Positions 1,096 to 11,479 of a stretch of 24,820 bases of DNA are shown here, in pieces. Made by a program: the position numbers and the translations under genes. The notes below the pieces were generated by a model that was not told where the DNA came from, made no database searches, and was given only the letters and a program-made list of their open reading frames with translations. The first letter of the stretch is position 1. Each line of letters begins with the position of its first letter. The stretch comes from a virus, in the IMG/VR virus record IMGVR_UViG_3300023178_000256, positions 1 to 24,820 of that record; one strand, 5' to 3'.

Positions 1096-3645
1096 ATGAC
1101 AATGACATCGTTTTACACATCAGTCGAACGCTTCGGCAATAATATCTTACATCGTGGATATAACAATGGGAAAAGATTCTCATATAAAGTTCCGTTCAAA
1201 CCGACACTGTATTTACATACACCAAAATCTGGTGAGGAAGGCTATACTTCCTTAGTGGGTAATTACAAACTTTCACCTCAGCAGTTTGGTGATATGCGCG
1301 AAGCCAAAAACTTTATCGAAGAGTATAAAGGCGTCGGCAATATGAAAATGTTTGGTAGTACAAACTATGTTGCTCAGTTCATTCAAGAAAACTACCCAGA
1401 TAAGATTGCATTCGACATGTCTCAAATCAATGTCGCCTCGTTTGATATTGAGGTTGATATACGTGATGGTTATGCAAACATCGAAGAGGCAGATAAAGAG
1501 ATTACATCAATTGCCTACCACAGTTCACGAAATTCAAAATACACACTCCTTGCGGTCAAAGATTTTGACAAATACGCAACGACTACTGGAATTGACCCAG
1601 AGGACATTGAGTTCGTCAAATTCAGTAGTGAACAACAACTCCTAAGATATTTCGTTGAATTGTGGGCGGCAGATTATCCAGATATTGTGACTGGTTGGAA
1701 CGTTGAATATTTTGACATACAATATCTTGTGACTCGTATTATTCGTATCTGTGGCGAAGACTTGGCAAAAAGACTTTCGCCTTGGAAACATATCAAGAAA
1801 CACTCAAACGAAATCTTCAATAAGGTCCAATCCACATATCGTATCTCTGGTATGACTGTGATTGACTACATGGACGCGTTCAAGAAATTTGGATACAAAT
1901 ATGGTCCACAAGAATCTTATAAACTTGACCATATTGCATATACAGTCCTTGGTAAGAAAAAATTGGACTATTCTGAATATGGAAACCTAACAGCTCTATA
2001 TGACGAAAATCCACAACTCTATCTTGATTATAATCTTCGTGATACTCAGTTGATTTCTGCTCTCGAAGAGGAAACAAGTTTATTACAATTGGTAATGACT
2101 GTCGCTTATGGTGGCGGTGTTGATTATAAAGATGCATTTGGTACTGTGGGTATCTGGGAAACAACCATTTACCGTAGACTATTGCGAGACAAAATTGTTC
2201 CACCTCTTAAAGGTGGTCCCGGCGAAAATTTAGGAGGACTTGTCGGTGGTTATGTTAAAGATCCAGTTCCTGGCATGCACCCTTGGGTTGTTAGTTTTGA
2301 CCTTAACTCCCTATATCCTCACCTGATGCTACAATATAACATGTCACCAGAGACTTGGGTTTCTGACCGACGTGAATATGTGACTCAGGATATGGTACTC
2401 GAAGGTGAGTTTACAAATGATGACCCAGATGTATCGGTATGTGCAAATGGTGTTTGTTTTAGGAATGACGAGGTTGGAATTATTCCAGGTATTATTAATG
2501 AATACTATCGGAATCGTGTTCAGATCAAGAAACAAATGCTTGCGGTCGAACAACAGCTCGAAGTAGAGATTGACGAAACCGAAAAGAAAAGACTCAAACG
2601 TGAAATGAATCAACTTCACAATTCACAAATGTCTATCAAAATTGCGATGAACAGTCTATACGGTGCAACGGCAAACAAATATTTCTTATATTATATTTCG
2701 GAAATGGCCGAGGCGATTACTACATCTGGTCAGTTGTCTATCCGATATGCTCAAAAATCTGTAAATGAATACATGAATAAAATCCTTGGCACAAAGGATA
2801 AGGATTATATCATTTACATTGACACAGATTCCATTTATGTCAACTTTGCCGACCTTATTACTGAAGTGTTTGGTACAACAGACATTGACCGTAAACAAGG
2901 CGAAGAGTTTCTCGATAAGGTTTGCTCTACAAAAATTGAACAAATCATTGAACAAGGCTACGAGGACCTTAAAACCAAGATGGGCGCATATCGAAATGCG
3001 ATGGTGATGAAACGTGAAAAAATTACTGACCGTGCCATCTTTGTTGCGAAAAAGAGATATATCCTGAATGCTCTCAACTCCGAAGGTGTTCATTACGAAA
3101 AACCAAAAATCAGCGTGACTGGTCTTGAAAGTGTTCGTTCCTCTACGCCAGAAATTTGTAGAGAAAAAATGAAACAGGCCTTCGATGTGATTATGAATGG
3201 TACCGAACAAGATGCTCAAACCTTTATTAAAGAGTTCAAGGAAGAGTTCCAATCAGTACCTATCGAGGATATTGCAAAAACATCTGGTACTGACGATATT
3301 GAAAAATACAAAGACAAGGCTACCTTATTCCGAAAAGGTTGTCCTATCCATGTACGTGGTTCAATCTTGTATAACCACCATTTGGTCAAAAACAAACTGA
3401 ACAAGAAATACGAACAAATACAATCTGGTGACAAGGTCAAACTTATCTATCTGAAGGTACCAAATCCTATTCAGCAAAATGTCATCAGTTTTCCTGGCGT
3501 TTTACCTAAGGAACTAGAACTTACTAAATATATTGACTACGACACACAATTTGATAAGGTATTCCTAACACCTATCCAAGGTATCCTAGATGCTCTTGGT
3601 TGGTCGGCAGAAAAGGTAGATACAATCGAGGATTTCTTTACATAA
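1096..3645 (+). CDS. 43: Family B DNA polymerase (T4 gp43-like)
   Basis: Replicative DNA polymerase with 3'-5' proofreading, 849 residues against about 900 for T4. Exonuclease motifs: Exo I FDIE (D117, E119), Exo II NVEYFD (N202, D207), Exo III YNLRD (Y312, D316). Polymerase motifs: A DLNSLYP (D402), B KIAMNSLYG (K515-G523) and C DTDS (D576, D578), followed by a KKRY motif. The C-terminus IEDFFT resembles the sliding-clamp binding tail of gp43. All catalytic residues are present. The start at 1096 has another in-frame ATG two codons later and no clear Shine-Dalgarno, so the exact initiator is uncertain. It has its own promoter, and the next gene begins directly after its TAA. Confidence 0.98.
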   Translation: MTMTSFYTSVERFGNNILHRGYNNGKRFSYKVPFKPTLYLHTPKSGEEGYTSLVGNYKLSPQQFGDMREAKNFIEEYKGVGNMKMFGSTNYVAQFIQENYPDKIAFDMSQINVASFDIEVDIRDGYANIEEADKEITSIAYHSSRNSKYTLLAVKDFDKYATTTGIDPEDIEFVKFSSEQQLLRYFVELWAADYPDIVTGWNVEYFDIQYLVTRIIRICGEDLAKRLSPWKHIKKHSNEIFNKVQSTYRISGMTVIDYMDAFKKFGYKYGPQESYKLDHIAYTVLGKKKLDYSEYGNLTALYDENPQLYLDYNLRDTQLISALEEETSLLQLVMTVAYGGGVDYKDAFGTVGIWETTIYRRLLRDKIVPPLKGGPGENLGGLVGGYVKDPVPGMHPWVVSFDLNSLYPHLMLQYNMSPETWVSDRREYVTQDMVLEGEFTNDDPDVSVCANGVCFRNDEVGIIPGIINEYYRNRVQIKKQMLAVEQQLEVEIDETEKKRLKREMNQLHNSQMSIKIAMNSLYGATANKYFLYYISEMAEAITTSGQLSIRYAQKSVNEYMNKILGTKDKDYIIYIDTDSIYVNFADLITEVFGTTDIDRKQGEEFLDKVCSTKIEQIIEQGYEDLKTKMGAYRNAMVMKREKITDRAIFVAKKRYILNALNSEGVHYEKPKISVTGLESVRSSTPEICREKMKQAFDVIMNGTEQDAQTFIKEFKEEFQSVPIEDIAKTSGTDDIEKYKDKATLFRKGCPIHVRGSILYNHHLVKNKLNKKYEQIQSGDKVKLIYLKVPNPIQQNVISFPGVLPKELELTKYIDYDTQFDKVFLTPIQGILDALGWSAEKVDTIEDFFT

Positions 3646-4377
3646 ATGAATACAATTTTAATTGTCACAAACTTTAGAGCAGCAAGTACTGCATTCACGC
3701 TTTTAAAAGCACAGGAATATAATGTACCATTTAAAGGTGAGATGTTTTCACATGAAAGACCACACAGTCTTGGTGAAGCAAAAGCAACATGGGAATTAAA
3801 CCAATTAGGAATATTCGGTAAGGAGAAAAGAAAAGAATTTGCTTCTGACGAAAAATTTATTGAACAACTTGAGAATGGCGAACCTTGTTGTTTTAAATAT
3901 ATGCCTTATCAACTCCATCAGCAAGATAAAAACATTGATAGGCTGATGAATAGTGTCGATAAAATTTATTATTTGTATCGTAGAGATTTTATGGCTCAAT
4001 GTAAAAGTTGGATTGCGGTAAGACAACAAGGAGACTTTGGTGGTACTGGATTTATTTCTGGTCCTCAAATTAGTAAGGCTCAATTTGAAGAGTCACAAAG
4101 AGAAAAACATTTAGGACTTTTGGGCAAAACTGAGGAACCAGTTAAACATCATATTGTAATAAACCCAGAAGGTCTTTACGCTACTAGATTAGTAAAACAA
4201 CTGACTAATAATTATGAGTACATGGCTGAGCTTTATAAAAAATATCCAGGTGAGCTAGTGTGCATGGAGGATTTCTTTGAAAATCGTCCAGAAGAAAAAT
4301 ATAATAGAATAGTCACATTTGAACAGGACCCAATACTACCAGAAGGGTTCGATGTTGAAAAACTTTTTACGGGTTGA
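3646..4377 (+). CDS. Sulfotransferase-like P-loop protein
   Basis: 243 residues. The N-terminus has a strand-loop TNFRAASTAF (residues 8-17) resembling the 5'-phosphosulfate loop of PAPS-dependent sulfotransferases. YRRDFMAQCKSW (R113, S121) matches their 3'-phosphate motif, an Arg with a Ser eight residues later; the Stf0-type family has a similar R-R-D...Q...S pattern. The likely role is sulfate transfer to a small molecule or glycan; the substrate is unknown. It starts immediately after the polymerase stop codon (TAAATG) with no separate Shine-Dalgarno, so translation is probably coupled to gene 43. A more distant P-loop kinase-like fold is the alternative. Its TGA stop lies within the next -35 box. 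Confidence 0.55.
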   Translation: MNTILIVTNFRAASTAFTLLKAQEYNVPFKGEMFSHERPHSLGEAKATWELNQLGIFGKEKRKEFASDEKFIEQLENGEPCCFKYMPYQLHQQDKNIDRLMNSVDKIYYLYRRDFMAQCKSWIAVRQQGDFGGTGFISGPQISKAQFEESQREKHLGLLGKTEEPVKHHIVINPEGLYATRLVKQLTNNYEYMAELYKKYPGELVCMEDFFENRPEEKYNRIVTFEQDPILPEGFDVEKLFTG

Positions 4378-4953: not shown

Positions 4954-4982
4954 TTGACAAATGCCCAAAAATATGTTATACT
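4954..4982 (+). promoter_or_regulatory. Sigma70-type promoter for the 5013-8041 unit
   Basis: TTGACA 4954-4959, 17-bp spacer, extended -10 TGTTATACT with TATACT at 4977-4982. It is the only one of the seven similar promoters with a -10 mismatch. It precedes a four-gene run that includes the first glycosyltransferase and the epimerase. Confidence 0.82.
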
Positions 4983-5012: not shown

Positions 5013-5603
5013 ATGCAAAACGAAACGACCTATACGGACAATCAGTGGGAAGTATATTACTTCTTCAAGAATAATGTCTTAAATCCATCTTATCATTTAT
5101 GTGATAAAATAACCCAACGTGCTCTAGCTAATGCATTATTTGATGCAGGACGAGAGCCAGTAGAGTTCATCTCAGAAGAGGCACAAAAATTAAAAGATGA
5201 AAAGGGTCACAAATATGTTCCATGCTATGAGCATTATCGAGGCAGGACACAATCAGCAAAAGACATTACCAGAGCATTTTTAACTGGTAAGAGTCAATCA
5301 TTTATAATGAAACTGATTAGGTCTAGAATGAGAGGTCATTATACAACAAGCGAAGAGAATGTCAAATTAAAAAGATTTGACCATCTACCTTGGAGACAGG
5401 CATATGCCGAGGCTGGTATTAAATTAATTCCTTGGGAACCAAAACCAGTTAGAAAATTTGACTATATAATAGAGGGTAAAACATATGAATCAATCTCAGA
5501 GGTTGCAGAAAAATATGGTATTACCACAGAAGGTGTTGTTTACAGGTGTAAATCAGATTCTGAAAGATTTACAGACTGGACAAGAGAAACTATTGATGAA
5601 TAA
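5013..5603 (+). CDS. Uncharacterised protein with NUMOD-like C-terminal DNA-binding motif
   Basis: 196 residues. The last 45 (about 149-190) read as a NUMOD-type module: a short beta hairpin ending IEGKTYESISEVAEKYGI, then a second helix and a CKSDSERFTDW ending. NUMODs are small helix-turn-helix DNA-binding modules often attached to homing endonucleases. The first 140 residues are basic and helical, with a CYEHYRGRT stretch (71-79), but I cannot make out a complete HNH or GIY-YIG nuclease. It could be a degenerate or unusual homing-type nuclease, or a DNA-binding regulator. The start uses an AATATTATG context without a clear Shine-Dalgarno. Confidence 0.7.
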   Translation: MQNETTYTDNQWEVYYFFKNNVLNPSYHLCDKITQRALANALFDAGREPVEFISEEAQKLKDEKGHKYVPCYEHYRGRTQSAKDITRAFLTGKSQSFIMKLIRSRMRGHYTTSEENVKLKRFDHLPWRQAYAEAGIKLIPWEPKPVRKFDYIIEGKTYESISEVAEKYGITTEGVVYRCKSDSERFTDWTRETIDE

Positions 5604-5635: not shown

Positions 5636-5959
5636 ATGAGTAATAAAAATTTAAAAGACTATACAAAAGACACGGCCGCTGAATACGAGGATTTGGTTGG
5701 ATATGTTTCTGATGATAATATTACAGATACATTGGATACTTTCCTCGGCGAAGAGAAGGCTGACTATAAACCAGAGGTTGCAAGGAAAAAAGTTGACCCA
5801 GAATTTCCAGAACCTTGGCAGACACTTTTTGTAAACTTTGAGAGCGAACAAGATTATATTGATTTTATGTTGGCGATTGACGAAAAGCCTATGCCTAAAT
5901 TAAAAGATGTTGTCTACAAGGCTGGACGACAAGAAAATGGAATTTTGGATTTATTATAA
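5636..5959 (+). CDS. Small acidic protein sharing a motif with the next glycosyltransferase
   Basis: 107 residues of unknown function. The N-terminal half is acidic and probably flexible. Residues 61-94 hold the pattern W-x-x-hydrophobic-F-V-x-F-E-S-E-x-D-x-x-x-F followed by a VVY strand. The same pattern (VKFKSEEDRKHF, then VVYYP) occurs in residues 38-71 of the protein encoded next. I have the impression that this motif recurs in other phage DNA-modification and ParB-like proteins. Shine-Dalgarno GAGG precedes AAATTATG. Its TAA shares one base with the next ATG (TAATG), so translation is coupled. Confidence 0.75.
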   Translation: MSNKNLKDYTKDTAAEYEDLVGYVSDDNITDTLDTFLGEEKADYKPEVARKKVDPEFPEPWQTLFVNFESEQDYIDFMLAIDEKPMPKLKDVVYKAGRQENGILDLL

Positions 5960-7188
5960 TGTATACACCAGTTCACACACAAGAAGAATTACAAAAGGAA
6001 TGGCGTAATCAGTATGTCCAATGGTATGCCGCTGGTATGCCAACCTTTAGAGCAAAGAAAAAAGATGTCTTTAAACAAATCGCTGTCAAGTTCAAATCAG
6101 AAGAAGACAGAAAACATTTCAGCGATAAACTGGATTATAATTTGACAAATAAAACAAATGTGGTTTATTATCCTGCTAGAGGCAGGGAAGAGAACATGAC
6201 CAACAGATATGTTGAGACTGATACTGACCACTTTCAACCAAGATATCCTATCTATATTATTAGTAAGGGACGATGGGATACAAGACACACCGCAAGGACA
6301 TTGGAAAAAATGGGTGTGCCATATTACATTGCAGTCGAACCACAGGAATACGACAAATATGTTGAGGCGACTCCTCCAGGCTTGGGTACTGTATTAAAAC
6401 TTCCTTTCAGTAATCATGGTAAAGGTTCTGGTCCTGCAAGAAATTGGTGCTGGGAACATTCACAGGCGAATGGTCATGCTAGACACTGGCTGATGGACGA
6501 TAACATTGATGGGTTTGTCAGATTAAATCATAACAAACGATACCGTGTAGAAAATGGTTCTGGTATTTTTAGGGCGACTGAGGATTTTGTTGACAGATAT
6601 GAAAATGTGGCTCTCGCCTCATTCCAATACAAATTCTTTGTGGTTGACCCATGCCCATATCAGCCATTTATACTAAATACAAGAATGATGTCCTGTATTT
6701 TAATTGATAATAATTGTCCGCACAAATGGCGTGGCAAGTTTAATGAAGATGTAGATTTGAGTATCCGTGTCCTTAAGGAAGGATTATGTACAATGCTAAT
6801 ATACGCATTTGTTCAAGGTAAACTCAGAACGGGAACAGTAAAAGGTGGAAACACAACTGAAGTGTATGAGGATTATAATGTTGATTCTGAAAATGACCCA
6901 GCATATAACAAATCAAAAATGTTAAAAGAAATGCACCCAGACTGTGTGACTCTCGTTGAGAGATATGGAAGAGTACATCACCATGTTGACCTCAACGCCA
7001 TCGTAAATAAGCATGGATACCCTGCTAGACAAAATCCACTTATATTGAAAAAAGATGTACCAATAGTGAATAAAGTAGATAATTACGGAATGCAATTAAT
7101 GCGAAATTGGAATACTGACGAACAATTCCCAGATCCGGATTTCGAAGCAAATATATTTCCGGAAGGGAGAACATCAATACATGGCTAA
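5959..7188 (+). CDS. TET-associated-type glycosyltransferase (TAGT-like), putative DNA-base glycosyltransferase
   Basis: 409 residues. After the small shared motif (38-71) comes a GT-A-type glycosyltransferase domain from about residue 95: YPIYIISKGRWDTRHTAR, then GPARNWCWEHS, then the metal/nucleotide-sugar site LMDDNIDGF (D180, D181). This arrangement is that of the TET-associated glycosyltransferases, which in phages modify hydroxymethylated pyrimidines in DNA. No TET/JBP oxygenase or dCMP hydroxymethylase lies in this window, so the acceptor (DNA base or surface glycan) is unproven. The gene is coupled at both ends: TAATG upstream, and an 8-base overlap with the epimerase downstream. Family call is moderately strong; the substrate is inference. 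Confidence 0.72.
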   Translation: MYTPVHTQEELQKEWRNQYVQWYAAGMPTFRAKKKDVFKQIAVKFKSEEDRKHFSDKLDYNLTNKTNVVYYPARGREENMTNRYVETDTDHFQPRYPIYIISKGRWDTRHTARTLEKMGVPYYIAVEPQEYDKYVEATPPGLGTVLKLPFSNHGKGSGPARNWCWEHSQANGHARHWLMDDNIDGFVRLNHNKRYRVENGSGIFRATEDFVDRYENVALASFQYKFFVVDPCPYQPFILNTRMMSCILIDNNCPHKWRGKFNEDVDLSIRVLKEGLCTMLIYAFVQGKLRTGTVKGGNTTEVYEDYNVDSENDPAYNKSKMLKEMHPDCVTLVERYGRVHHHVDLNAIVNKHGYPARQNPLILKKDVPIVNKVDNYGMQLMRNWNTDEQFPDPDFEANIFPEGRTSIHG

Positions 7189-8041
7189 AATATTAATTAC
7201 AGGTGGTGCAGGTTTTGTCGGTAGTCATTTGGCTGAAAGACTTGTTGCTGAAGGGCATCAGGTTTGTTCATTGGATAACTATTTTACAGGTTCAATGAAA
7301 AATCATGTCCGCGAAGTTTTATATGTACAGGATTGTACTACAAACTTGACACCAGATTTTGGCGAAGGTGATTTTGATATTGTGTATCATTTAGGTGAGT
7401 ATTCTCGTGTGGAACAATCATTCGAGGATATTGAACTTGTACACAAATTTAATATTGAAGGTACAACTCGTGTATTGGAATGTGTCCGTGCATGGAATGC
7501 CAAACTAGTTTATTCTGGTTCAAGTACCAAATTTGCAGACCGTGATGATAAGGATTATGTAATGAGTCCTTATGCCTGGTCAAAAGCCAAAAATACAGAA
7601 CTTGTTAAAATGTATGCTGAATGGTTTGGTATTGACTATGCAATCACATATTTTTATAATGTATATGGACCTAGAGAAATACAAGATGGAAAATATGCTA
7701 CACTTATTGCAAAATATGCCAGACTGATGGAAGAGAAACAATTATTACCAGTTGTATCGCCAGGAACACAACAAAGAAATTTCACTCATGTAGATGATAT
7801 TGTTGACGCTCTCGTTCTGATTGGTGAAAAAGGCCAAGGCGACGAATATGGTATCGGCCATCCAGAACGATTTACAGTATTAGACGTGGCCACATTATTT
7901 GGTGGTCAAATTGAAAAACTTCCACCTCGTAAAGGTAATCGTATGGCGGCAGATGTTATTACTGATAATACCAGAGCTCTCGGTTGGGAACCAAAACGAA
8001 ATCTGAGAGATTATATAAATAGGTTGGTAGATAATGGTTGA
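7181..8041 (+). CDS. NAD-dependent nucleotide-sugar epimerase/dehydratase (extended SDR)
   Basis: 286 residues. The Rossmann start ITGGAGFVGSHL (G8, G11, G14) binds NAD. The catalytic set is YSGSST (S114, S115) and YAWSK (Y131, K135), as in UDP-glucose 4-epimerase and dTDP-glucose dehydratase families. YFYNVYGPRE and the QQRNFTHVDD stretch are typical of sugar-binding extended SDRs. It therefore interconverts or dehydrates a nucleotide sugar; which one cannot be read from the sequence. It overlaps the glycosyltransferase gene by eight bases, suggesting it makes that enzyme's donor. Its TGA stop lies inside the next -35 box. Confidence 0.9.
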   Translation: MAKILITGGAGFVGSHLAERLVAEGHQVCSLDNYFTGSMKNHVREVLYVQDCTTNLTPDFGEGDFDIVYHLGEYSRVEQSFEDIELVHKFNIEGTTRVLECVRAWNAKLVYSGSSTKFADRDDKDYVMSPYAWSKAKNTELVKMYAEWFGIDYAITYFYNVYGPREIQDGKYATLIAKYARLMEEKQLLPVVSPGTQQRNFTHVDDIVDALVLIGEKGQGDEYGIGHPERFTVLDVATLFGGQIEKLPPRKGNRMAADVITDNTRALGWEPKRNLRDYINRLVDNG

Positions 8042-8066
8042 CATTGTGCCAAATATATGTTATAAT
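8038..8066 (+). promoter_or_regulatory. Sigma70-type promoter for dexA
   Basis: TTGACA 8038-8043 overlapping the upstream TGA (8039-8041), 17-bp spacer, extended -10 TGTTATAAT with TATAAT at 8061-8066, 27 bp before the dexA ATG. Confidence 0.85.
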
Positions 8067-8092
8067 GGCATATACATTGAGGAATTTTTATT

Positions 8093-8710
8093 ATGAAACA
8101 TTGCATTATTGACTTTGAAACTATGGGTATTGATGTCAACAATTGTGTAGTTATTGACATGTCAGCACTCGTGTTTGACTGGGATAAATTCTCATCTAAT
8201 AATCCTTATAACTTTAAGGACATCTCACAAGTTCAAAAATATAAATTTGATATCAGAGAACAAGTTGCTAAATACAACTTTACAATAGATAAAAGCACAG
8301 TAAAATTCTGGGAGGACCAACCACTAGAAGTTCGTAAAAATATTGTGCCAAGAAATACTGATATTAGTTTAGAGCAATTTGCAGAACAATTTATTTCATA
8401 CCTCATTCCACATGGAAAAATCTCACATTGGTGGTCTCGTAGTAATTCATTCGACCCTTGTATCCTATGGAGATTATTTGATGTGATTGGTAAAAAACAA
8501 CAGGTCTTGGAATACTTACCGCATTGGTCACTACGTGATACAAGAACATGGATTGATGCGAAATTAGATTTTCCAAGAAAAAATGGTTTCTGTCCTATTG
8601 AAGATGAAAAGATATGGGAACAGACTTTTAAAGCTCATGATAGTTCTTGGGATATCCTTGCTGATGTTTTAAGATTACAAGCTATTGACAGAGCTGAAAA
8701 ACTTGATTAA
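8093..8710 (+). CDS. dexA: DexA-like 3'-5' exonuclease
   Basis: 205 residues against 227 for T4 exonuclease A. It is a DEDDh (DnaQ/RNase T-type) exonuclease: IIDFETMG (D7, E9), SRSNSFDP, RDTRTWIDA, and the closing HDSSWD (H182, D187). STVKFWEDQPLEVRKNI resembles the T4 DexA sequence segment by segment. The function is single-strand 3'-5' DNA exonuclease; in T4 it is non-essential and aids host DNA degradation. Shine-Dalgarno GAGG is followed by TTTATTATG. It is transcribed from its own promoter and followed 19 bases later by the sugar dehydrogenase. Confidence 0.93.
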   Translation: MKHCIIDFETMGIDVNNCVVIDMSALVFDWDKFSSNNPYNFKDISQVQKYKFDIREQVAKYNFTIDKSTVKFWEDQPLEVRKNIVPRNTDISLEQFAEQFISYLIPHGKISHWWSRSNSFDPCILWRLFDVIGKKQQVLEYLPHWSLRDTRTWIDAKLDFPRKNGFCPIEDEKIWEQTFKAHDSSWDILADVLRLQAIDRAEKLD

Positions 8711-8729
8711 TTTATATTATGGAGAAGAA

Positions 8730-9620
8730 ATGCAACAAGCAAATATTAATGCAATCAAAACACCTAGGCAGAGGGTGAACATGAAAACTACTCAAACACT
8801 TAAACTCGGTATTATTGGCCGAGGTTTTGTAGGCGGAGCAGTATCCACTGGATTCGATACTAAAAATGTAGAACAATATATTGTAGACCCAGTACATTCA
8901 AAATTAACTTTTGCAGAGCTTATAGACTCAAACCCAGAAGTTATTTTTATTTGTTTACCTACACCAACAAGAACAAAGGCTTCGGTTGAAGGTCCTGTAG
9001 GTAGTGTAAACGCAGACTTAATTAAAACTACATTAAGTAATCTTGAAAAAGAACAATATGATGGTATTGTGGTCATTAAGAGCACAGTCGCACCTTCAGT
9101 GTTAGAATCATTTACAAATATTTTTACACAACTTAATATTGTTTACAATCCTGAATTTTTAACAGAAGCAAATGCAAATGATGATTTCGTAAATCCACCT
9201 TTCCAAATCTTTGGTGGTGATTGGGATATGTGTACAAAAGTAGAACAAATGTATACTCAATACAGTGATGTAAAACCTGTACCAACATTCAAACTTGACA
9301 TTAAGGCAGCAAGTTTCTTAAAATATACTATTAACAGCTGGTTGGCTACAAAGGTAGTATTTTTTAATGAACTAAGAGAACTTTATGCCGAATATGACAT
9401 GTCAACTTCCTGGTCAGAATTTATTGGTGTGTTGGCACACGAACCTCGTGTCGGTCCATCTCACATGAATGTTCCAGGACCTGATGGTAGATTTGGTTTC
9501 GGTGGCAATTGTTTCCCAAAAGACACAAAAGCATTTGTTGAAGAATCAAGAGATTATTCAATGCTTCAACTTTTAGAACAAGCGATTCAGCTTAATAATG
9601 ATATGCGTATTGACAAATAA
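8730..9620 (+). CDS. Short nucleotide-sugar dehydrogenase (UDP-glucose/GDP-mannose dehydrogenase family)
   Basis: 296 residues from the ATG at 8730, which has a strong GGAG. The ATG at 8781, with GAGGG before it, would give the more usual family start KLGIIGRGFVGG and cannot be excluded. Family motifs: NAD site GRGFVGG, KSTVAP, NPEFLTEANANDD, and the catalytic-cysteine motif GGNCFPKD (C261). Full-length enzymes have roughly 390-450 residues. This protein stops soon after the central helical domain and lacks the C-terminal nucleotide-sugar binding domain. It may act as a compact dehydrogenase on an unknown NDP-sugar. Catalytic residues look intact, so decay is not obvious. It probably belongs with the nearby sugar genes. 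Confidence 0.87.
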   Translation: MQQANINAIKTPRQRVNMKTTQTLKLGIIGRGFVGGAVSTGFDTKNVEQYIVDPVHSKLTFAELIDSNPEVIFICLPTPTRTKASVEGPVGSVNADLIKTTLSNLEKEQYDGIVVIKSTVAPSVLESFTNIFTQLNIVYNPEFLTEANANDDFVNPPFQIFGGDWDMCTKVEQMYTQYSDVKPVPTFKLDIKAASFLKYTINSWLATKVVFFNELRELYAEYDMSTSWSEFIGVLAHEPRVGPSHMNVPGPDGRFGFGGNCFPKDTKAFVEESRDYSMLQLLEQAIQLNNDMRIDK

Positions 9621-9638
9621 TCCTTTACGTGTTATAAT
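9610..9638 (+). promoter_or_regulatory. Sigma70-type promoter
   Basis: TTGACA 9610-9615, 17-bp spacer, extended -10 TGTTATAAT with TATAAT at 9633-9638. The -35 box encodes the last Ile-Asp-Lys of the upstream dehydrogenase. The ATG of the next gene is 16 bp after the -10 box. Confidence 0.85.
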
Positions 9639-9653
9639 ATAAGGAAAAATAAA

Positions 9654-9887
9654 ATGGCAAATTATAAAGATCAAATTTTAAAAGCTTCAAAGCTTCATTT
9701 CGAAGCTCATATTCAAAAGCATAAAATCAATGTCGACATTCTTTTGGACTCACATGTTGGTGTGGCCGAACATCCAGATGTAATGGAAACTATTGAAAAA
9801 GAATTAGCAATGATGGCTGATTATGAAGATAAACTTGCAATGTTAAACAAGTATTTTCATGTCCCTGAAGCACCAAGATTACCCTAA
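9654..9887 (+). CDS. Conserved-looking small phage protein, function unknown
   Basis: 77 residues, predicted mainly helical, with a histidine-rich first half (HFEAHIQKHK) and a charged helix IEKELAMMADYEDKLAML. I recognise no domain; similar small proteins accompany replication genes in marine T4-like phages, by general impression only. AAGGA serves as ribosome site. It leads the unit that carries the second glycosyltransferase, 12 bases downstream. Confidence 0.75.
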   Translation: MANYKDQILKASKLHFEAHIQKHKINVDILLDSHVGVAEHPDVMETIEKELAMMADYEDKLAMLNKYFHVPEAPRLP

Positions 9888-9899
9888 CGAGAAAATTAC

Positions 9900-10772
9900 A
9901 TGAAACTTGAAGTATCAACTGAAGAGTTAAGAAAATATAGTATCTTTATTGGCACACCAATGTATGGTGGCCAGTGCAGTGGTATGTTTACAAAGTCAAC
10001 AAACGACTTGAGTATGCTATGTGCAAAACATCAAATACCACTTAAATACTATTTTTTATTTAATGAGAGTCTAGTACAAAGGGCCAGGAATTATATTGTA
10101 GATGAATTCATGAGATCTGATTGTACACATCTTATGTTTATTGATTCCGATATTGGATTTAATCCTAGAGATGTACTTGCACTCTTGGCAATGAATATTC
10201 AAGATAAAGAAAACATGGACGTTGTCACAGGACCATATCCCAAGAAAACAATTGCTTGGGAAAAAGTAAGTAAAGCATCTGAACTTGGTCTTGCAAATGA
10301 CAATCCATTTAAACTAGAAAATTATACATCAGATTTTGTATTTAATCCTGTGAAAGGAATGACATCATTTAAACTTGGAGAACCTGTAGAGGTGTCCGAG
10401 GCCGGAACAGGATTTATGCTTATCACAAGAGAGGCTTTGGAGAAGTATAGAGATTCTTATCCAGAACTTTCTTACAAACCAGACCACATTCGAACCGACA
10501 ATTTTGACGGTACAAGAGAAATAACTGCTTTCTTTGATTGCGTCATTGACCCAGAATCAAAAAGGTATCTATCTGAGGATTATTTCTTTTGTCGTAAAGC
10601 CAGACAAATTGGTTTGAAAATTTGGATGTGTCCTTGGATGCAAATCAACCATGTCGGCTCTTATATTTTTAAGGGTAATATGGGCTCGATTGGTCAACTA
10701 GGTGTGTCCGCCACTGCGGATAAAACTTCCAACAGAAAATCGTACAAACCTGTTGACAAATCATCAAAATAG
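9900..10772 (+). CDS. GT-A-type glycosyltransferase
   Basis: 290 residues. The opening FIGTPMYGGQCSG and the arginine-containing helix SLVQRARNYIVDEF lead to the donor/metal site MFIDSDIGF (D82-S83-D84), the DxD of GT2-like enzymes. A SEAGTGFMLITREALEK segment and a C-terminal SEDYFFCRKARQIG resemble the acceptor-side parts of this class. It probably transfers a sugar from a nucleotide donor; the acceptor could be DNA, lipopolysaccharide or capsule. No membrane segment is visible. Together with the epimerase, short dehydrogenase and TAGT-like enzyme it completes a sugar block. The next promoter begins inside its final codons. Confidence 0.85.
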   Translation: MKLEVSTEELRKYSIFIGTPMYGGQCSGMFTKSTNDLSMLCAKHQIPLKYYFLFNESLVQRARNYIVDEFMRSDCTHLMFIDSDIGFNPRDVLALLAMNIQDKENMDVVTGPYPKKTIAWEKVSKASELGLANDNPFKLENYTSDFVFNPVKGMTSFKLGEPVEVSEAGTGFMLITREALEKYRDSYPELSYKPDHIRTDNFDGTREITAFFDCVIDPESKRYLSEDYFFCRKARQIGLKIWMCPWMQINHVGSYIFKGNMGSIGQLGVSATADKTSNRKSYKPVDKSSK

Positions 10773-10781
10773 GTATATAAT
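10753..10781 (+). promoter_or_regulatory. Sigma70-type promoter for gene 45
   Basis: TTGACA 10753-10758 within the last codons of the glycosyltransferase, 17-bp spacer, TATAAT at 10776-10781. The -10 lacks the TG extension seen at most of the others. Confidence 0.82.
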
Positions 10782-10816: not shown

Positions 10817-11479
10817 ATGAAATTTTCTAACGACACGTTGAATGTTTTAAAATCATTTACCGCAATTAACAAGAGTATTCTTTTAACTGAAGGTAATGTA
10901 ATTAAAACAATCACACCAGAAAAGACATTGATTGCAATCGCAGAGGTCCCAGATACAATGCCATCACAGGCTTGTGTTTACGACCTTTCAAGATTTCTAT
11001 CAATCTTGTCTTTATATAATGAACCCGATGTTGAATTTGGAGATAAATACTTTGTAATCTCTGAAGGCAAACGTCGAACAAAATACGTTTACGCTGACAT
11101 CTCCATGATTCATACTCCGCCAGAGAAGGATATTACATTGCCTTCCGAGGACGTGGTAGTAAATGTATCAGAAGGAGACTTATCGTCTGTATTAAAGGCG
11201 GCGGGTGTTCTTCAGTTCTCTGAGGTTGCATTTGTAGGCGAAGGCGGCACATGCTATCTCAAGGCAATCGACAGCTCAAACGAAAACGCAGATGACTTTG
11301 GCGTTGAAATCGGCGAGACTGACGATACATTTAAGGTAATTATTAAAACTGATAACCTTAAATTACTACCTTTGGATTATCAGGTCACAATATGCTCAAA
11401 AGGCATATCTGAGTTCAAAGGAAAAGGTGTCACATATTATGTGGCTATTGATTCAAAGTCGACTTATAATAAAAGGTGA
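10817..11479 (+). CDS. 45: Sliding clamp (T4 gp45-like)
   Basis: 220 residues, against 228 in T4. The N-terminus MKFSNDTLNVLKSFTAINKS aligns with T4 gp45, and VYDLSRFLSILSLYNEPDVE matches its central DLNGFLGILSLVNDD segment. The C-terminal FKGKGVTYYVAIDS corresponds to the end of T4 gp45. As a homotrimeric ring it tethers the polymerase and, in T4, activates late transcription with gp33 and gp55. That matters here because late boxes are present in the window. GGAG is followed by TATATTATG. It starts the clamp/clamp-loader run. Confidence 0.95.
   Translation: MKFSNDTLNVLKSFTAINKSILLTEGNVIKTITPEKTLIAIAEVPDTMPSQACVYDLSRFLSILSLYNEPDVEFGDKYFVISEGKRRTKYVYADISMIHTPPEKDITLPSEDVVVNVSEGDLSSVLKAAGVLQFSEVAFVGEGGTCYLKAIDSSNENADDFGVEIGETDDTFKVIIKTDNLKLLPLDYQVTICSKGISEFKGKGVTYYVAIDSKSTYNKR

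Follow-up and report, generated by a model that had tools for sequence, protein, structure and literature searches.

Why would a phage keep genes for sugar activation and glycosyl transfer in the midst of its replication genes? The question is raised by IMG/VR virus record IMGVR_UViG_3300023178_000256, a contig of a T4-like phage (a relative of phage T4), which was analysed whole and is called the window below (24,820 nucleotides). Its genes run gp46, gp43, a sugar block, gp45, gp44, gp62, regA, dUTPase, Hsp20 and tail genes. Between gp43 and gp45 lie genes for a TAGT glycosyltransferase (GT), an SDR epimerase, a short UDP-glucose dehydrogenase (UGD), dexA and a second GT-A enzyme (phrog_1574, here GT1574). 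The open reading frames (ORFs), families and overlaps matched those described in a first-pass annotation, confirming that the genes are real. We conclude that the block is a real, conserved DNA-modification cassette and a new version of the T4-like glycosylation systems. From sequence, we further propose that this exchangeable cassette probably performs clamp-tethered TAGT glycosylation of newly made phage DNA, with a 107-residue protein as docking partner. The features concerned are as follows.

5636..5959, + strand: 107-residue adaptor-like ORF, no family match; 1-nt overlap with the start of TAGT
5959..7188, + strand: TAGT DNA glycosyltransferase (PF20691, phrog_842; Pfam E=4e-44) with fused N-terminal MPEF domain
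6001..6183, + strand: MPEF domain of TAGT, residues ~15-75
6244..6849, + strand: TAGT catalytic domain, invariant D180-D181-N182 at 6496-6504
7181..8041, + strand: SDR nucleotide-sugar 4-epimerase-like protein (PF01370, E=3e-42); 8-nt overlap with TAGT
8093..8710, + strand: DexA-like 3'-5' exonuclease (phrog_255), backbone gene common to all cassette types
8781..9620, + strand: short UDP-glucose 6-dehydrogenase, UGD (PF03721 and PF00984)
9654..9887, + strand: phrog_1811 small protein, backbone gene common to cassette types
9900..10772, + strand: GT1574, GT-A glycosyltransferase by fold (phrog_1574), invariant DxD (D82, D84)
10817..11479, + strand: gp45 sliding clamp, predicted docking partner

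The TAGT family and the gp43-gp45 slot

The TAGT enzyme matched PF20691 with 151.6 bits against a cut-off of 27.5, and the match covered the whole profile (1-205 of 205). The D180-D181 acidic motif is invariant, and 59 residues are invariant in 28 sequences. Profile searches placed the enzyme in the DNA-glycosyltransferase family and in no polysaccharide family, in keeping with its earlier labelling as TAGT-like. An AlphaFold2 model (pLDDT 75) gave Foldseek matches to GT-A enzymes with E 3e-5 and TM-scores of only ~0.3, and structure-based sugar specificities for TAGT and GT1574 were rejected because the TM-scores were too low for assignment. The MPEF domain, fused to TAGT in the window, is a separate 87-residue ORF in most relatives; at one locus (L078) it forms the C-terminus of a ParB-like GGHQR ORF (ParB by motif only; no Pfam match). 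At another (L072:7030-10218), a single 1062-residue frame joins TAGT, UDG-like, 3'-5' exonuclease and DNA polymerase A domains.

Our search for TAGT yielded 79 IMG/VR loci and 24 cultured-phage records. Over the stretch between gp46 and the tail genes, one relative, G001 (169,742 bp), is syntenic with the window; it also encodes a second TAGT. The order 107-residue ORF-MPEF-TAGT-SDR-UGD-GT1574-gp45-gp44 recurs in phages with only 41% polymerase identity; in one of these, G003, TAGT is 71%, GT1574 61% and UGD 39% identical. The general operon of distant phages comprises the 107-residue ORF, MPEF, TAGT, SDR, often UGD and/or dCMP deaminase, GT1574, gp45 and gp44. Because this gene order recurs in many independent contigs, the arrangement is not due to chance. 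The TAGT of G001 shares 66-74% identity with TAGTs from phages in which polymerase identity is only 41-45%, a gap which fits cassette exchange and to which unequal constraint could contribute.

Three siblings show what else can occupy this position. G004, G006 and G002 are close to the window in gp44 (85-87%), gp45 (86-87%) and, where present, polymerase (75-76%), and they retain dexA-GT1574-gp45; G004 further retains the polymerase, sulfotransferase-like, 4423 and glutaredoxin genes. Instead of TAGT, SDR and UGD, they carry a thymidylate synthase (TS)-type enzyme, a dCMP deaminase and a C5-methylase-like enzyme (PF00145). To this set G004 adds an SDR, a 363-residue protein and a UDP-galactopyranose mutase, and G002 and G006 add a kinase-like protein, a nucleotidyltransferase and a 419-residue glycosyltransferase. 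Identity of the TS-type enzyme to phage genes labelled dCMP hydroxymethylase or thymidylate synthase was 54-58%. The locus thus alternates between hydroxymethylase/methylase-type and TAGT sets, and the gp43-to-gp45 region is therefore best read as an exchangeable DNA-modification slot. GT1574 is present with all cassette types, which rules it out as an obligatory partner of TAGT.

The alternative cassettes have counterparts in known systems. Those of G002 and G006 resemble, in their kinase, nucleotidyltransferase and TS-type enzyme, the pentosyl-cytosine pathways of RB69/Mosigvirus and Thanatos, T4-like phages which likewise have their own sugar-nucleotide genes and DNA glycosyltransferases; RB69 has a proposed GT-B transferase and an acceptor made by a TS-family enzyme (PMC6024577, PMC13390438), and the window cassette has neither. 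Phage C48C1 (Kyanoviridae), like the window, has an epimerase and a short UGD near the polymerase, with clamp-like peptides on its TET enzyme and methylase. Unlike the window, it has Tet_JBP followed by homologs of the G004 363-residue protein and UDP-galactopyranose mutase, and no TAGT. Together, the G004-type cassette and the C48C1 TET locus suggest galactofuranosylated hydroxymethylcytosine. The G004 cassette (TS-type enzyme, SDR, 363-residue protein, mutase and C5-methylase) spans L212:1018-6206 (G004 21018-26206) and is listed with L172. A dCMP deaminase is found within the TAGT cassette at L034, L043, L047, L050 and L056, and beside the TS-type enzyme in alternative cassettes.

Could these genes instead act on surfaces? 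UGD, epimerase and GT might make a uronic-acid polysaccharide or alter lipopolysaccharide, adding sugars to the surface of the host or to virion proteins, so as to exclude superinfecting phages or decorate the virion. UGD and an epimerase are typical of capsule and lipopolysaccharide pathways, the best PDB relatives are cell-surface sugar enzymes, and Foldseek places polysaccharide and protein glycosyltransferases among the neighbours of TAGT and GT1574. However, TAGT belongs to a DNA-GT family, replication genes surround the slot, hydroxymethylase/methylase sets can take the cassette's place in it, and membrane or flippase genes were not noted in the slot. Together with the TAGT-DNA polymerase fusion and the clamp-like C-termini described below, these observations uphold the earlier preference for DNA modification over virion decoration and make a surface role improbable.

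The 107-residue partner and its C-terminal peptide

The 107-residue ORF is present at 52 of the 79 TAGT loci. Its N-terminus is acidic, its small 'VNF-SEEDY-FM' domain is related to the N-terminus of TAGT, and the protein ends in NGILDLL. This end and that of the window's own polymerase are located as follows.

5939..5956, + strand: gp45-clamp-binding-like C-terminal peptide GILDLL (in relatives GLLDFM, GLESFF, GILNFF)
3622..3642, + strand: C-terminus of gp43 DNA polymerase, TIEDFFT, the window phage's reference clamp-binding peptide

In T4, gp43, gp55 and gp33 bind gp45 via such interchangeable C-termini (PMC2988020); the C-terminal motif of gp55 and gp33 is LDFL (PMC9690074). Polymerases of related phages end in TLEDFFS-like peptides. 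Clamp-like C-termini were found in the 107-residue family (22 of 22 distinct ends), in 15 of 16 polymerases and in half of the gp55-like proteins, with a mean of 2% in other families. A stricter form of the peptide, which misses the window's own GILDLL, ended 28 of 1077 ORFs pooled from the window and related genomes, versus 4 of 4745 internal control positions (about 0.1%). The 28 carriers comprise polymerases, gp55-like and 107-residue proteins, three C5-methylases, two copies of the 419-residue glycosyltransferase, the C48C1 TET enzyme and methylase, and a few others, possibly by chance. The alternative cassette's glycosyltransferase ends in ATLEDFFG and its C5-methylase in NLEEFFA, while the C48C1 TET enzyme ends in SLEEFFV and its Dam-like methylase in TLDAFFG. 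Near the TAGT of phiAS5, ORF0215 (L158:9983-11236), a putative adenine methylase (NPPY motif by eye), has a clamp-like C-terminal TLEAFF.

The retention of this peptide in every distinct end bears on a further explanation, that the block is a gene island in decay or without selective effect, with a chance hydrophobic tail on the 107-residue protein. UGD is truncated and GT content differs between relatives, as decay would have it. Against it stand the intact frames, the invariant TAGT residues and the high identity of TAGTs whose polymerases have diverged, and we consider it very unlikely indeed.

Tblastn of cultured phages with the 107-residue ORF and the MPEF domain gave no useful match, so profile-profile comparison with small ORFs beside TAGT was needed. 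Pectobacterium phage POP12 has a 59-residue ORF which overlaps TAGT and carries the small domain and a C-terminal GLDDFM, and the Aeromonas phages Aeh1 and phiAS5 have 66-residue counterparts beside TAGT ending in GLASLFDI and GLASIFEI. By hhalign, these small ORFs matched the MPEF ORFs with E 1e-8 (probability 96%), and the 107-residue family matched them with E 2e-6 (probability 90%). A small clamp-peptide partner was not found beside TAGT in phage 65, Kuja, PTm1 or two small Vibrio phages.

A link between a DNA glycosyltransferase and the sliding clamp has a precedent in T4 alpha-glucosyltransferase (alpha-GT), which co-purifies with gp45 (PMC13216743); in the window the link is predicted. 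T4 alpha-GT is a GT-B enzyme that binds the clamp itself, whereas in the window a separate 107-residue partner bears the peptide.

Sugar donor and acceptor

UGD retains the catalytic GGNCFPKD and PEFLTE motifs, which align with 3phl and 7kws. It has no C-terminal UDP-binding domain (PF03720), as the ORF stops after the central domain, and its score fell under the NCBIfam subfamily cut-off. The window SDR is closest, among PDB relatives, to UDP-glucose 4-epimerases and next to UDP-glucuronate decarboxylases. UDP-xylose synthase was rejected as its identity, being only the second-best PDB group; the SDR's active-site SSTK lacks the Glu expected of UDP-xylose synthases. In distant cassettes, the window-type SDR is replaced by a UDP-glucuronate-4-epimerase-like SDR closest to 5u4q, 6zl6 and MoeE5, the last two of which are UDP-glucuronate 4-epimerases. 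A donor sugar derived from UDP-glucuronate is likely from these assignments but not certain, because some cassettes have no UGD.

There is a parallel in Bacillus phage SP-15, which encodes a UDP-glucose dehydrogenase and whose DNA bears glucose and phosphoglucuronate (PMC5977210); it differs in being unrelated to the window phage and in its base, dihydroxypentyluracil. Sulfated sugars are conceivable: a sulfotransferase-like ORF (judged by eye; no Pfam match) follows gp43 at 3646-4377 of the window, and APS-kinase-like ORFs (PF01583) lie upstream in the near-identical strain (L240:18189-18626) and within the G014 cassette (L242:17933-18712).

The first-pass annotation saw no oxygenase or hydroxymethylase in view and left the acceptor open. 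Wider searches bore this out: in 12 cassette-bearing contigs (~780 kb, G001 included, though incomplete contigs limit this negative), neither TET/JBP (PF12851) nor the dCMP hydroxymethylase/thymidylate-synthase type (PF00303) was matched, and C5-methylase (PF00145) was not matched in nine of the 12. In contrast, PF00303 and PF00145 were both present in the three sibling contigs that lack a TAGT cassette and were examined for the two families, and G008, a further such contig, has PF00303. Neither alpha-GT (PF11440) nor beta-GT (PF09198) was among the annotated ORFs of the window; the relatives were not profile-searched for them. Near genome-sized G001 has only ThyX, SHMT and dCMP deaminase, with ThyX the sole thymidylate synthase found. 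ThyX was rejected as a cassette-linked hydroxymethylase: it is not cassette-specific, being present in sibling G002 too, alongside that phage's own TS-like enzyme. A 2OG-Fe(II) oxygenase of G001 was rejected as acceptor-maker because neither G013, the window's near-identical strain, nor other cassette contigs have it at this position.

These negatives bear on a conventional route, in which TAGT would glucosylate hydroxymethylcytosine or hydroxymethyluracil made by a hydroxylase elsewhere in the genome, UGD and epimerase being unrelated. The T2/T6 beta-glucosyl-HMC-alpha-glucosyltransferase is a TAGT (PF20691) of the same catalytic family and GT-A fold in a T4-like phage; it adds glucose to alpha-glucosyl-hydroxymethylcytosine, acting after alpha-GT on hydroxymethylcytosine from gp42 (PMC13216743, PMC2993671). 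Kuja, phiAS5, PTm1 and POP12 have TAGT and a TS-family gene. However, the cassette contigs, G001 (169.7 kb) among them, gave no gp42-type enzyme (PF00303), and TAGT is present in Aeh1 and 65, for which PMC2993671 lists no gene 42. The window cassette also differs from T2/T6 TAGT in that it includes UGD and epimerase genes, that its TAGT has an MPEF domain and that a partner with a clamp peptide accompanies the enzyme. We regard the conventional route as rather unlikely. A bolder proposal is less likely than not: a uronic acid (glucuronate or galacturonate) would be placed on DNA at the fork by a GT tethered to the clamp via a separate adaptor, on an acceptor from no known hydroxylase, with C-terminal-peptide tethering general for T4-like DNA-modifying enzymes.

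Promoters, mechanism and significance

Exact TTGACA-N16-18-TATAAT sites occur seven times in the window versus 0.05 expected. Six precede gp43, 4423, dexA, 9654, gp45 and dUTPase; the seventh is antisense (5338-5365, - strand, 16-nt spacer) and lies inside ORF 5013. Those relevant to the cassette, with one near-consensus site, are listed below.

4954..4982, + strand: early-type promoter, 11/12 match, which would serve ORF 5013 and the TAGT unit
8038..8066, + strand: exact consensus sigma70 promoter with extended -10, dexA-UGD (promoter scan)
9610..9638, + strand: exact consensus sigma70 promoter, phrog_1811-GT1574 unit (promoter scan)
10753..10781, + strand: exact consensus sigma70 promoter, gp45 unit (promoter scan)

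The first-pass annotation assigned early promoters to all three sugar units and argued from early timing for DNA modification. Both statements hold directly for two units (dexA and 9654/GT). The TAGT unit has no exact promoter directly upstream; its nearest early-type site is the one at 4954, upstream of ORF 5013, with no terminator predicted in between. ORF 5013-5603, directly before the cassette, is weakly I-TevI DNA-binding-domain-like, and a GIY-YIG ORF lies within the G014 cassette (L242:14198-14677). Homing endonucleases may drive cassette exchange.

We envisage clamp-tethered glycosylation as follows. UGD and SDR would make a glucuronate-derived UDP-sugar, which TAGT, judging from its family, the polymerase fusion and the slot, would transfer to bases of newly made phage DNA. 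The 107-residue protein would pair with TAGT, perhaps by contact between their related small domains, and its GILDLL end would dock TAGT on gp45, such that glycosylation follows the replication fork. GT1574 may extend the sugar or use it alternatively. DNA modified in this way would be protected from nuclease-based host defences.

Several points weigh against this proposal. All support is computational, and no maker of a hydroxylated or hydroxymethylated acceptor was found with the cassette. UGD is absent from some related cassettes, and GT1574 occurs also without TAGT. The 107-residue protein shows modest homology to the N-terminus of TAGT (57-90% probability by hhalign), the window's clade ends in GILDLL or GILDLF rather than an F-rich peptide, and the strict peptide count draws on related genomes. 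In T4, alpha-GT clamp binding reportedly does not set the modification level (PMC13216743).

What is new here is the exchangeable slot, a predicted clamp-docking partner and the missing conventional acceptor route. In a published census, 288 of 753 GT-encoding phages have TAGT without alpha- or beta-GT and may encode novel transferases (PMC13216743). The cassette supplies a defined set of genes, a probable route to the donor, a predicted docking mechanism and a list of candidate phages. Comparison of the slot could help to find DNA-modification genes in uncultured phages, in the gp43-gp45 interval and among proteins with a clamp peptide at the C-terminus. An acceptor other than a hydroxymethyl-pyrimidine would mean new chemistry.

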